Source of the DNA: a virus
Virus record (IMG/VR): IMGVR_UViG_3300030329_000319
Coordinates: 1-24,140 of that record
DNA length: 24,140 bases
Reading direction: 5' to 3' (one strand)
The notes below the pieces were generated by a model, which did not search any database, was not told the origin of the DNA, and saw only the letters and a list, made by a program, of their open reading frames with translations. How positions within the stretch are numbered: position 1 is the first letter of the stretch; the number at the start of each line of letters is the position of its first letter. Made by a program: the position numbers and the translations under genes. Below, one piece after another: positions 5,986 to 10,740 of this stretch.

Positions 5986-6221
5986 TGTCATCATCAGTAT
6001 ACGAAAAAATCGCTAAACAAATGAAAGAAGCGAAAATTATGCGTAGAGAAGCTATAAATAAGGCGAAAGAAGCTGCAGAAACCGTTATGGTTCGTGCCAG
6101 AACTGCCGCTGGTCATTATGTAGCTGATAATCCAGATACGCCTGAAAATGAAGCTTGGGAAGAAAAGCCTAAAGCCGAAGTTAAGAAAAAAACAACAAAG
6201 AAAGCTAAGAAGAAGAGTTGA
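5985..6221 (+). CDS. Small Lys-rich protein (function unknown)
   Basis: 78 residues, starting at an ATG that overlaps the portal stop (TAATG). The N-terminal two thirds is a predicted amphipathic helix (KIAKQMKEAKIMRREAINKA), then comes a short acidic stretch (DNPDTPENEAWEEK), and the tail is almost pure Lys/Thr/Ala (KKKTTKKAKKK). Such tails occur in nucleic-acid-binding proteins, so a DNA-condensing or packaging accessory role is possible. No known domain is recognised. The A-rich end of the gene also supplies the purine-rich ribosome binding region for the next gene. Confidence 0.8.
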   Translation: MSSSVYEKIAKQMKEAKIMRREAINKAKEAAETVMVRARTAAGHYVADNPDTPENEAWEEKPKAEVKKKTTKKAKKKS

Positions 6222-6409
6222 CAAAACCAACAGTAAATTCCCTTAACCAAGAGATACACTCTCTTGATTCACGCACTACTCGCCTCGAAACTGAAGCCGA
6301 TATTCAGTTCAGGGATTTGTTTAATCGTGTTAAGCGGCTTGAATCTATCATGCTTGCTTCTACTGGTGCTACTCTTCTTTTATTAATAAGCATAGTTATA
6401 CGGATGTAA
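6218..6409 (+). CDS. Small coiled-coil protein with C-terminal membrane anchor (XhlA-like architecture)
   Basis: 63 residues from a TTG at 6218 that overlaps the previous TGA (TTGA), with the purine run AGAAGAAGAG just upstream. Residues 5-45 have heptad-like spacing (LNQEIHSLDSRTTRLETEAD, then FRDLFNRVKRLE), and residues 45-62 are hydrophobic (LASTGATLLLLISIVI). This coil-plus-tail-anchor layout matches small phage lysis-associated proteins of the haemolysin XhlA type, but that is a match of architecture, not clear homology. It begins a run of small membrane proteins ahead of the holin and endolysin. A non-ATG start and short length keep confidence moderate. Confidence 0.66.
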   Translation: MTKPTVNSLNQEIHSLDSRTTRLETEADIQFRDLFNRVKRLESIMLASTGATLLLLISIVIRM

Positions 6410-6410
6410 G

Positions 6411-6899
6411 ATGGACCCTCTCACTATAAGTGCGGCTATCTCAACTGCGACTGCCGCATTTGGGGGAATAAAGAAAGCCTTTATGGCAGGTCGAGAACTG
6501 GAAAGTATGACGGCTGATTTGAGTCGTTGGATGGGAGCAGTTTCAGACGTATCGAATATAGAAAAAAGAGCAAAGAACCCTAGTTTATTTTCTAAAGTAT
6601 TTAATGGACAAAGTATAGAGCAGGAAGCTATCGAAGCTTTCGCTGCCAAAAAAAAATTACAACAGCAGCGTGACGAACTCAAAACCTTCATAATGTTCGC
6701 TCATGGAACCGCAGCTTGGGAAGAATTAATTCAGATGGAGGGCCAAATTCGTAAGCGTAGACAGAAGGAAATTTATGAAGCACAAGAACGTAAAGAAAAA
6801 ATTATATTCTGGACTATTGTCATCTGTACCTTTGGTATCGGCTTTGTTGTCCTCCTTGCTTTTGCTTACGGTCTCTTCTTGCTTGACAGAAGCTCATGA
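6411..6899 (+). CDS. Helical protein with C-terminal transmembrane segment
   Basis: 162 residues. The N-terminus (1-25) is Ala/Gly-rich and weakly hydrophobic, 60-130 is a charged helical region (KKKLQQQRDEL, then QIRKRRQKEIYEAQERKEK), and 131-157 is one strong membrane span. The strongly basic stretch just before the span predicts an N-in topology with only a few residues outside. Codons 122-162 are read a second time in the +1 frame as the start of the next gene, including all of the membrane span. The role is unknown. Lysis accessory protein, superinfection-exclusion factor or minor virion protein are all possible. It is not a classical inner-membrane spanin, which has its span at the N-terminus. 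Confidence 0.84.
   Translation: MDPLTISAAISTATAAFGGIKKAFMAGRELESMTADLSRWMGAVSDVSNIEKRAKNPSLFSKVFNGQSIEQEAIEAFAAKKKLQQQRDELKTFIMFAHGTAAWEELIQMEGQIRKRRQKEIYEAQERKEKIIFWTIVICTFGIGFVVLLAFAYGLFLLDRSS
6763..6770 (+). promoter_or_regulatory. Internal ribosome binding site for the out-of-frame gene at 6775
   Basis: AGAAGGAA lies inside the preceding gene, with the ATG at 6775 4-5 nt downstream. Because it sits within coding sequence of another frame, it is the main signal that the overlapping frame is translated in its own right. Confidence 0.65.
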
Positions 6900-7161
6900 G
6901 CACAAATTTCAACCTACGTTAAATAATGGACATTTAACGATATGCAGATTAAAAAAGATAGAGAAAGCACATCAGAACGCAAATGGCAGAAGTGCTCATG
7001 CGTGGTGGTGTCTTTACGAAGGAGCAAATGGTAGTGGATTTCTTGAACTGGTTGATTCGTATGATTTATGCCCTAAAGAAGTTGTTTGCCCCTATGACCC
7101 CAAGGATAAACCCCCTAATATAAAAGATATGCTCAATGCAATGAAGGAGGCATTTAAATGA
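6775..7161 (+). CDS. Exported cysteine-containing protein, probable lipoprotein, overlapping the upstream gene out of frame
   Basis: 128 residues. The first 125 nt overlap the gene ending at 6899 in a different frame. A basic N-region (MKHKNVKKK) is followed by a hydrophobic core (13-33) and the lipobox-like VSSC at 33-36, so Cys36 could be the lipidated residue; signal peptidase I cleavage after TEA (Ala40) is an alternative. The mature part has four more cysteines (57, 79, 99, 105) in the contexts TICRL, AWWCLYEG and DLCPKEVVCP, suiting two disulfides in an oxidising compartment. The stop TGA overlaps the next ATG (ATGA). An embedded lipoprotein recalls the Rz/Rz1 arrangement, but this one lacks the Pro-rich outer spanin character and its partner has the opposite membrane layout. 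It could act in lysis or at the host envelope; the function is unknown. Confidence 0.8.
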   Translation: MKHKNVKKKLYSGLLSSVPLVSALLSSLLLLTVSSCLTEAHEHKFQPTLNNGHLTICRLKKIEKAHQNANGRSAHAWWCLYEGANGSGFLELVDSYDLCPKEVVCPYDPKDKPPNIKDMLNAMKEAFK

Positions 7162-7493
7162 GTCAAAAAAAATTTCAAAAAGGCACTAAATTCTCAGAAT
7201 ATGACCTAGACGGTGACGGAATAATTACAGATAAAGAGATAGAACAAGAAGAAAGAATGATCCGTGTTCGTGACATGGATAAGATGGCAGATCAGCAACG
7301 ATATATCTGTTGGGTTTCTTCTATTACGTCCATAGGGCTGATATTACTGGCTATGTCGCCTGTTATTCCTGATTCACGAATTGAGATGGTCACTGCTTTA
7401 TTAAGCACTTATGTAGTGGCTAATCTTGGAATTGTGTCAGTATTTATGGGTGCTACTGCTTGGACACGAGCAAAAGAGAATGGAAAAGGTTAA
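7158..7493 (+). CDS. Two-TM membrane protein with a canonical EF-hand loop
   Basis: 111 residues. Residues 16-27, DLDGDGIITDKE, give a complete 12-residue EF-hand loop with D at 1, 3 and 5, G at 6, I at 8 and E at 12, so calcium binding is chemically plausible. Two membrane spans follow at about 49-69 and 79-101, with a short basic C-terminus (TRAKENGKG). The ATG overlaps the upstream TGA, and the stop lies 14 nt inside the next gene. Small TM proteins beside endolysin and nuclease genes are often holins or antiholins. A calcium-responsive holin-like role is inference, and a single EF-hand may be structural only. Confidence 0.88.
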   Translation: MSQKKFQKGTKFSEYDLDGDGIITDKEIEQEERMIRVRDMDKMADQQRYICWVSSITSIGLILLAMSPVIPDSRIEMVTALLSTYVVANLGIVSVFMGATAWTRAKENGKG

Positions 7494-8329: not shown

Positions 8330-8731
8330 ATGAGCGTATTAACAAGTTTAGTAGGTCCAGTAACAGGATTACTGGATAAATTTATAGAAGACAAAGATCA
8401 AAAAGCAAAGCTTGCACATGAAATAGCGACTATGGGCGAAAAACACGCTCAAGAGGCTATGCTTGCCCAGTTAGAGATAAATAAGGCAGAAGCGGCTTCA
8501 GGATCATTATTTAAAGGTGGTTGGAGACCGTTTGTGGGATGGGTATGTGCAGTAGCGTTTGCATATCATTTTGTAATTCAACCATTATTAATATTTATAT
8601 TTAGCTATATAGGGATTGACCCACCTGATTTGCCAGAATTTCAAATGAATACATTGCTCACAGTCTTGGGTGGATTATTAGGAATCGGAGGATTGCGTAG
8701 CTATGAAAAGACAAAAGGCTTAACGAAATAA
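8330..8731 (+). CDS. Three-TM holin of the gene-transfer-agent type
   Basis: 133 residues, starting at the base after the previous stop. The N-terminus (6-55) is a charged helix with the family's typical KAKLAHEIATMGEKHAQEAM stretch, then FKGGWRPFVGWVCAVAF leads into a hydrophobic block of two spans (about 67-93), and the third span covers about 108-122 (LLTVLGGLLGIGGL) followed by RSYEKTKG. This order, including the WRP motif before the first span and the Arg/Glu after the last, fits the 3TM holin family first named from gene transfer agents. It would form the lesion through which the endolysin at 9447 escapes. The other small TM proteins here may modulate its timing. The presence of this holin does not make the element a gene transfer agent. 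Confidence 0.9.
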   Translation: MSVLTSLVGPVTGLLDKFIEDKDQKAKLAHEIATMGEKHAQEAMLAQLEINKAEAASGSLFKGGWRPFVGWVCAVAFAYHFVIQPLLIFIFSYIGIDPPDLPEFQMNTLLTVLGGLLGIGGLRSYEKTKGLTK

Positions 8732-9446: not shown

Positions 9447-9947
9447 ATGAAAGAAAATTTTGAAGAGTGTCTAAAAATGCTCCTTCATCATGAGGGTGGT
9501 TATGTTAACCACCCTGATGATCCAGGTGGGGAGACAAATCTAGGAGTGACTAAGAAAGTCTACGAAGAGTGGGGTGGAACAAAAGATATGAAAGACCTTA
9601 CAGTTGAAGATGTCGCTCCTATCTATAAAAAGAATTACTGGTCGAGACTCAAATGTGACGACCTCCCTAGTGGGTTGGATTTTTGTGCGTTTGACTGGGG
9701 TGTGAATAGCGGTACAGGTCGTGCAGCTAAAGCGTTACAAAAAATTGTAGGTGCAAACCCTGATGGAGCTATAGGTCCTAAGACACTTGCTCTTATAGCA
9801 AAACAAGACCCTAAATTTATGGTTGAGCAATTTGGTAAAATACGTCAGGAATTTTATGAAAGTTTATCAACTTTTAAAACTTTTGGTCGTGGTTGGACTA
9901 GAAGAAATGAAGAAACTACACAAAAAGCTGTAAGTATGGTACAGTGA
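9447..9947 (+). CDS. Endolysin: GH108 N-acetylmuramidase with PG_binding_3 domain
   Basis: 166 residues, the usual length for this family. The glycoside hydrolase 108 part (about 1-85) has the catalytic motif HHEGGYVNHPDDPGGETNLG with Glu16, followed by YKKNYWSRLKCDDLPSGLD and FDWGVNSGTGRA. The C-terminal PG_binding_3-like part holds LQKIVGANPDGAIGPKTL (98-114) and a helical tail. It cleaves the glycan backbone of peptidoglycan. There is no signal peptide or membrane anchor, so export depends on the holin. AGGAGA at 9433-9438 precedes the ATG by 8 nt. It is the last gene before a strong terminator, closing the lysis block. Cys8, Cys70 and Cys80 are present but not expected to be catalytic. 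Confidence 0.95.
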   Translation: MKENFEECLKMLLHHEGGYVNHPDDPGGETNLGVTKKVYEEWGGTKDMKDLTVEDVAPIYKKNYWSRLKCDDLPSGLDFCAFDWGVNSGTGRAAKALQKIVGANPDGAIGPKTLALIAKQDPKFMVEQFGKIRQEFYESLSTFKTFGRGWTRRNEETTQKAVSMVQ

Positions 9948-10064: not shown

Positions 10065-10259
10065 ATGGATTCAGTTGCTTTAGCACAAAAATTATTAAAA
10101 AGCATCCGTGAACAAAAACAGTCTATTTCAGACTATTTAACGGATGGTGGAGCCTCTACAATAGAGGACTATCGTTTTGTTGTAGGTCAGATGCGTGGCT
10201 TGACCTATGCAGAAGAAGAAATTAAAGCCACGATGAAAGGCATCGAAGAAGATGAATAA
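10065..10259 (+). CDS. Small conserved-type phage protein opening the capsid module
   Basis: 64 residues. The pattern LAQKLLKSIREQKQSISDYL, then GGASTIEDYRFVVGQMRGL, then EEEIKATMKG recurs in small proteins of marine and other short-tailed phages, usually near head genes, so the frame is well supported although no role is established. It is predicted to be all-helical and may form a small oligomer. The bases just before the ATG are AT-only with no Shine-Dalgarno, which is unusual in this genome. Its stop overlaps the next gene by 8 nt. It is the first gene after the strong terminator. Confidence 0.8.
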   Translation: MDSVALAQKLLKSIREQKQSISDYLTDGGASTIEDYRFVVGQMRGLTYAEEEIKATMKGIEEDE

Positions 10260-10740
10260 AAAACTATATGTGCCAGATCACATGGTAGGTACTTTAAATA
10301 AACAGAGGGGAAGAACCTCTGAAATTCCAAAAGCTATAAATAAAGCTTTTCCTGAAGCGAAAGAAAATAAAAACTCTAAAGACCCTTCTAAGTTTGAGCC
10401 GTCTGTTATAGACAGATTACCTCAACCAACAGGGTATAGAGTTCTTGTTATTCCCTGGTATCTTCCAGAAAAAACAAAGGGTGGACTTATTGTTCCTGAT
10501 GCAACAAGAGATAGAGAGTCATTCTCTACTGTGTGTGCATATGTAGTAAGACTTGGACCTGATGCGTATAAAGATGTTGATAAATTCCCATCTGGTGCGT
10601 GGTGCAGTGAGAAAAGTTGGATAATTATGGGAAGATATGCTGGAAATCGGTTTAAAGTTGATGGTTTAGAGGTTCGTATCATAAATGATGATAATATTAT
10701 AGGAACAATACTTGACCCATCAGACATTTCTTATGTATAA
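10252..10740 (+). CDS. Phage GroES-like co-chaperonin
   Basis: 162 residues. A 55-residue basic N-terminal extension precedes a Cpn10-type core (about 55-153): RLPQPTGYRVLVIPW, a mobile-loop equivalent ETK-type segment PEKTKGGLIVPDATRD (72-87) with the GroEL-binding GGLIV at 77-81, VVRLGPDAYKD, SWIIMGRYAGNRFKVDG and RIINDDNIIGTI. Together these match GroES from start to finish. It would cap host GroEL in the cytoplasm and help fold phage proteins, most likely the capsid protein made from the same operon, as T4 gp31 does for gp23. The ATG lies inside the previous gene. No phage GroEL is in the window, so host GroEL is the presumed partner. What the extension does is unclear. Confidence 0.92.
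   Translation: MNKKLYVPDHMVGTLNKQRGRTSEIPKAINKAFPEAKENKNSKDPSKFEPSVIDRLPQPTGYRVLVIPWYLPEKTKGGLIVPDATRDRESFSTVCAYVVRLGPDAYKDVDKFPSGAWCSEKSWIIMGRYAGNRFKVDGLEVRIINDDNIIGTILDPSDISYV

Follow-up and report, generated by a model that had tools for sequence, protein, structure and literature searches.

Can a single stretch of DNA provide the membrane anchor of one protein and, in another frame, the export signal of a second? This question is raised by two overlapping genes, here called A and B, in a 24,140-base virus record (the window, i.e. the whole stretch of DNA analysed), the capsid protein of which is 70-74% identical to the capsids of Pelagibacter phage HTVC023P and phage DSL-LC04. The genes lie on the same strand, with a portal-like gene on one side and a holin/GH108 endolysin block on the other, and both the open reading frame list and the sequence place B in the +1 frame relative to A with 125 nt in common (Table 1). 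The coordinates and frame relation given in an earlier sequence-only reading of the window were re-read from the sequence and matched. The preferred explanation, at a probability of roughly 0.8, is that A and B are both genuine phage proteins and that the shared 125 nt encodes the anchor of A together with a probable export signal of B, which would have its own start, Sec routing and signal peptidase (SPase) I cleavage. B would be initiated at an internal start codon with a ribosome-binding site inside A, exported by Sec and processed by signal peptidase I, with the cut at A↓HEH (marked by the arrow), after which the mature protein would fold in the periplasm with two disulfides. Such double use would be feasible in that an anchor and a signal each need little beyond hydrophobicity.

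Table 1. Coordinates of the A-B locus and its surroundings within the window.
Feature	Position	Strand	Description
Gene A	6411..6899	+	162 aa; predicted all-helical cytoplasmic part and one C-terminal TM anchor; phrog_32327
Gene B	6775..7161	+	128 aa; +1 relative to A
Double-coding overlap	6775..6899	+	125 nt, ~41 codons of A
DNA of the A transmembrane segment	6807..6878	+	A residues ~133-156; from sequence and AF2 helix 100-161
Putative B signal peptide	6775..6894	+	B residues 1-40, within the A coding sequence; cleavage predicted from conserved TEA↓HEH
B mature domain	6895..7158	+	88 aa, 4 Cys (C57, C79, C99, C105), invariant in alignment
Shine-Dalgarno-like AGAAGGAA for B	6763..6770	+	within the QKE codons of A, upstream of ATG 6775
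VSSC, lipobox-like	6871..6882	+	B residues 33-36; not conserved in family
A stop codon	6897..6899	+	at predicted B cleavage site
Gene C	7158..7493	+	2-TM protein with EF-hand-like DLDGDGIITDKEIE calcium loop; ATGA overlap with B stop
3-TM GTA-type holin (PF11351)	8330..8731	+	1.4 kb downstream of A
GH108 endolysin	9447..9947	+	part of the holin/GH108 endolysin block

The 233 distinct A tails taken from all loci comprise 157 with B and 76 without it, the former consisting of 39 loci like the window (clade 1), 110 loci with a longer B (clade 2) and eight loci of a sister lineage. Only a match to B was required for the B-containing label, such that closure of the overlap would not have kept a locus out of the count. 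None of the 157 distinct B-containing loci has a +1 stop in the final 95 nt of A; when the A tail is recoded synonymously at the codon frequencies of the gene itself, 4.4-5.6 +1 stops are expected and the probability of no stop is ~0.007 per sequence. The loci share ancestry, and these counts are not counts of independent events. Among groups without B, the mean number of +1 stops was 2.0 in close relatives that lost B, 4.4 in the roseophage type and 8 in another group. Of the 63 roseophage-type loci without B, three are open in +1 all the same, so openness by itself is no proof of a gene, which is instead provided by the conserved B domain downstream. The proposal that two hydrophobic targeting segments are double-coded is borne out by the open frame in 157 of 157 loci and the conserved domain behind it, and it also withstood a check of the homologues for a second frame that is interrupted or begins only after the overlap. 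At the level of sequence comparison, the A/B overlap is confirmed as genuine double coding as opposed to a chance open reading frame, and the double use appears to have persisted through deep divergence in a large marine phage group, with stops usually filling the frame after loss of B. On a tree of the A body, from which the overlap was left out, the B label changes at least 4-6 times. Four phylogenetically independent pairs could be drawn, with the open frame lost in the B-less lineage in two to four of them and the reverse never seen (sign test p 0.125), four pairs being too few for significance on their own.

A possible route by which both frames stay hydrophobic, through T-rich codons, had been suggested from the sequence, and this agrees with the observation that pyrimidine-ending transmembrane codons read in +1 give Leu, Phe and Ser and make the +1 reading hydrophobic at almost no cost. 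The maximum 14-residue mean hydropathy of the +1 frame is 2.59, compared with 2.15 expected given pyrimidine-ending codons. Owing to the way the code is built, hydropathy profiles tend to survive frameshift (Bartonek et al. 2020, PMC7084103), and A/B is likewise a case in which a hydrophobic segment stays hydrophobic in +1; the published frameshift stability is, however, a statistical property, whereas in A/B both readings appear to be used as targeting signals. The overlap codons of A avoid adenine at the third position, and use of ATA for Ile falls between the upstream region and the overlap from 52% to 9% in the clade of the window and from 48% to 5% in clade 2, with a value of 60% in B-less roseophage-type tails. 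Synonymous constraint in the overlap, which the sequence-only reading had named as a check on its claim, was weak: the ratio of the synonymous difference rate in the overlap to that upstream was 0.65 in clade 1, 0.84 in clade 2, 1.04 in the small sister lineage and 0.84 in the B-less control, such that the ratio of clade 2 equals that of the control. Synonymous-rate suppression was consequently set aside as a stand-alone proof of double coding. Values of dN/dS were ~0.06 for the part of B outside the overlap, 0.06-0.08 for the A body and B mature part, and 0.35-0.54 within the overlap in either frame, the last being a soft constraint that is not decisive and that is expected if both segments need only hydrophobicity.

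Protein A has a single strong hydrophobic segment in its last ~30 residues, with a tail of ~6 residues beyond the transmembrane helix, and its AF2 model is all helical (mean pLDDT 72). The RKRRQKEIYEAQERKEK ahead of the transmembrane segment would fit an N-in/C-out orientation under the positive-inside rule. A matches the phrog_32327 profile (E 2e-11), as do 21 of 21 aligned A proteins, and the phrog_32327 members encountered in cultured phages have no B beside them. At least 597 relatives of A are present in IMG/VR, and Roseobacter CRP phages carry A homologues that are ~34-42% identical (tblastn). Sequence searches found no solved structure for A or B, and neither protein had an NCBIfam match or a defence family match.

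Protein B begins with a basic N-region, MKHKNVKKK, followed by a hydrophobic core, and its AF2 model (mean pLDDT 70) has a mature part of four strands and a C-terminal helix at pLDDT ~80. A fold search with B gave no PDB match with E <0.001, and in VIA-align every row had Z <5, with the top rows aligning on the lone signal helix. Relatives of the mature domain are encoded in 331 IMG/VR stretches; homologues of B were absent from cultured phages (tblastn, with either B type as query) and from the bacterial and archaeal genome contigs searched. Five of 35 B members matched peptidase inhibitor family I36 (PF03995) weakly (best E 0.0027); the B of the window was not among them, and the similarity may serve as a weak lead only. 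The least certain proposal is that B, as an exported periplasmic protein, would act on the envelope, and confidence in any precise task is low. A 92-aa viral protein in BFVD, A0A516LQI5, is 86% identical to B, and is as long as a gene called from the TTG at -17 relative to the A stop would make it, i.e. with the signal peptide left off.

On the strength of VSSC, B had been read earlier as a lipoprotein. The Cys of this motif is present in 16 of 39 clade 1 near relatives and in none of the eight sister loci, and lipobox-like Cys matches in clade 2 (9 of 110) are mostly mid-core and not at the homologous place, while a signal-peptidase-I-type site, x-x-A↓(H/S)EH with Ala at -1, is kept in 46 of 47 clade 1 and sister loci; the patchy Cys and the conserved type-I site argue against lipidation. 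In clade 1 and the sister lineage, B has the basic n-region, hydrophobic core and small residues at -3/-1 of a Sec/SPase I substrate, the site being less clear in clade 2. In the window the site falls on the stop codon of A; the overlap thus corresponds in essence to one complete Sec signal peptide, at the end of which the conserved domain starts. The mature part of ~92 residues proposed earlier had been counted from the lipobox; a part outside the overlap remains, but TEA↓HEH would have the mature protein begin at residue 41 (6895) and leave 86-88 residues outside the overlap.

An i-spanin has an N-terminal TMD and a periplasmic domain, N-in and C-out, and +1-frame gene overlap occurs in the P2 and lambda spanins (PMC6139136). 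Like the two-component spanins (P2-type, lambda Rz/Rz1), A and B are small phage envelope proteins with a second gene overlapping in the +1 frame (157 loci) and with the export signal of that second gene inside the first. Unlike them, A has neither an N-terminal TM nor a long periplasmic domain, B has no conserved lipobox Cys and has a cysteine-rich mature part of predicted beta plus helix, and the overlapping DNA encodes a C-terminal membrane anchor where theirs encodes a periplasmic coiled coil. A is also without the signal and lipobox, and B without the C-terminal TMD, of a unimolecular spanin. The earlier statement that this is not a standard spanin pair therefore stands, given the C-terminal TM of A and the lack of a conserved lipobox. 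It is improbable that B is instead a lipoprotein of the outer or inner membrane that works with A in lysis as an unusual pair resembling spanins, and this reading was rejected on lipobox and topology. It would account for VSSC in the window and 16 near relatives, for the P2/lambda-like overlap and for the presence of holin and GH108 endolysin genes beyond A-B in the window, but the Cys is missing from the sister and larger lineages in which the rest of B is conserved, the C-terminal TM leaves A without a long periplasmic domain, and in 5 of the 11 records that have a PF11351 holin A-B lies 6-41 kb from it (in the other six, the holin is at most 1.5 kb downstream of A). A lysis role for A-B may still be possible. 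In a phage of a different type (L051:4995-6044), A-B comes after a 1043-aa protein; its downstream neighbours are a protein of 60 aa and a helicase encoded on the reverse strand, and no adjacent lysis gene was seen.

The start of B always lies between -140 and -86 nt relative to the stop of A. All 39 clade 1 and eight sister loci have an ATG at -116 to -125, which arises from the Tyr codon TAT of A (TAC would give ACG), and clade 2 has an ATG at -128 to -137 in most loci; other clade 2 loci have a new ATG further on (-92 to -101), and in 21 loci a +1 stop separates this in-frame ATG from the old start. ACG replaces ATG ~137 nt before the A stop, with no new ATG, in 17 clade 2 loci (including L329, L341 and L193) that are related and do not represent 17 events. 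Each of the 17 has AAGGAG just upstream (GGAGG in 16) and ATA as the next codon, compared with AAGGAG upstream in one of 64 ATG-start loci. Initiation at ATA with the strong ribosome-binding site AAAAGGAGG would be a guess for these loci, downstream TTG codons being an alternative start. The same 17 loci bear on a different reading, by which +1 ribosomal frameshifting would fuse the cytoplasmic part of A to the B frame, yielding a longer alternative product with the +1-frame segment as its TM; the loss of the usual ATG, the AAAAGGAGG just upstream and the hydrophobic helix in both frames at one place fit such a product, and Shine-Dalgarno-like sequences also stimulate the known prfB frameshift. 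It is nonetheless very unlikely, as the ATG at the B start is kept in 39 of 39 clade 1 and 8 of 8 sister loci, inspection revealed neither a 0-frame stop nor an evident slippery codon at a common place, and the conserved A↓HEH resembles the end of a signal peptide; further, the 21 loci with a stop before the new ATG are permitted by a new start, whereas frameshifting would restrict them. Least credence is given to a B that is real but starts at or after the overlap, from the -17 TTG, with an incidentally hydrophobic +1 frame. A0A516LQI5 has the length expected of such a protein, but the loss of ATA codons and of every +1 stop before -17 across the 157 loci, and their return without B, would be left unexplained, and it would be strange for a conserved four-Cys domain to have no export signal.

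Under the preferred reading of two proteins with a double-coded anchor and signal, the B domain may have acquired its export signal by overprinting the anchor of A, or may have joined behind an already open frame. A is found without B outside the B-containing group, and no B with an intact 5' end was found without A, all nine B-only matches being cut at the contig 5' edge; the simplest account is therefore a single gain of B behind A followed by several losses, with A as the apparently older element. A chimera (L150) compared with another locus (L147) is 93% identical in the mature domain, 37% in the signal and 57% in the A body, and the sister lineage displays a similar contrast, with up to 90% identity in the mature part and 32-49% in the signal, suggesting that each A tail supplies its own signal peptide. 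These two contrasts and the longer clade 2 domain led to a tentative proposal, held at somewhat below even odds, that the C-terminal anchor of a phage protein could act as a portable signal-peptide donor, with domains behind its stop exported via the +1 frame and mature domains swapped by recombination near the stop/cleavage junction. Two loci (L046, 2330-2560, and L319) have an open +1 signal-like frame with a stop 16 nt past A and are missing the B domain, apparently as a remnant.

A/B represents a clear and widespread case of one DNA stretch specifying a pair of membrane-targeting elements, each in its own frame, and the lineages that lost B serve as natural controls; within the terms searched, no literature report of overprinted signal peptides was found. 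The code would seem to offer little resistance to the conversion of an anchor into an export signal, which bears on the origin of secreted phage proteins. Further, gene callers can omit overlapped signal peptides, so a family of secreted marine phage proteins may stay hidden.

Elsewhere in the window, Pfam EF-hand matches to the DLDGDGIITDKEIE loop of gene C are sub-threshold. A GroES-like co-chaperonin is encoded at 10252-10740 (NCBIfam NF001531, E 9e-10, below its cut-off), at a position matching that of HTVC023P gp36, annotated GroES. Immediately upstream of A, at 6218-6409, is a gene for a 63-aa protein with a coiled-coil-like N-part and a C-terminal TM, a tail-anchored plan like that of A, which resembles XhlA in topology only.
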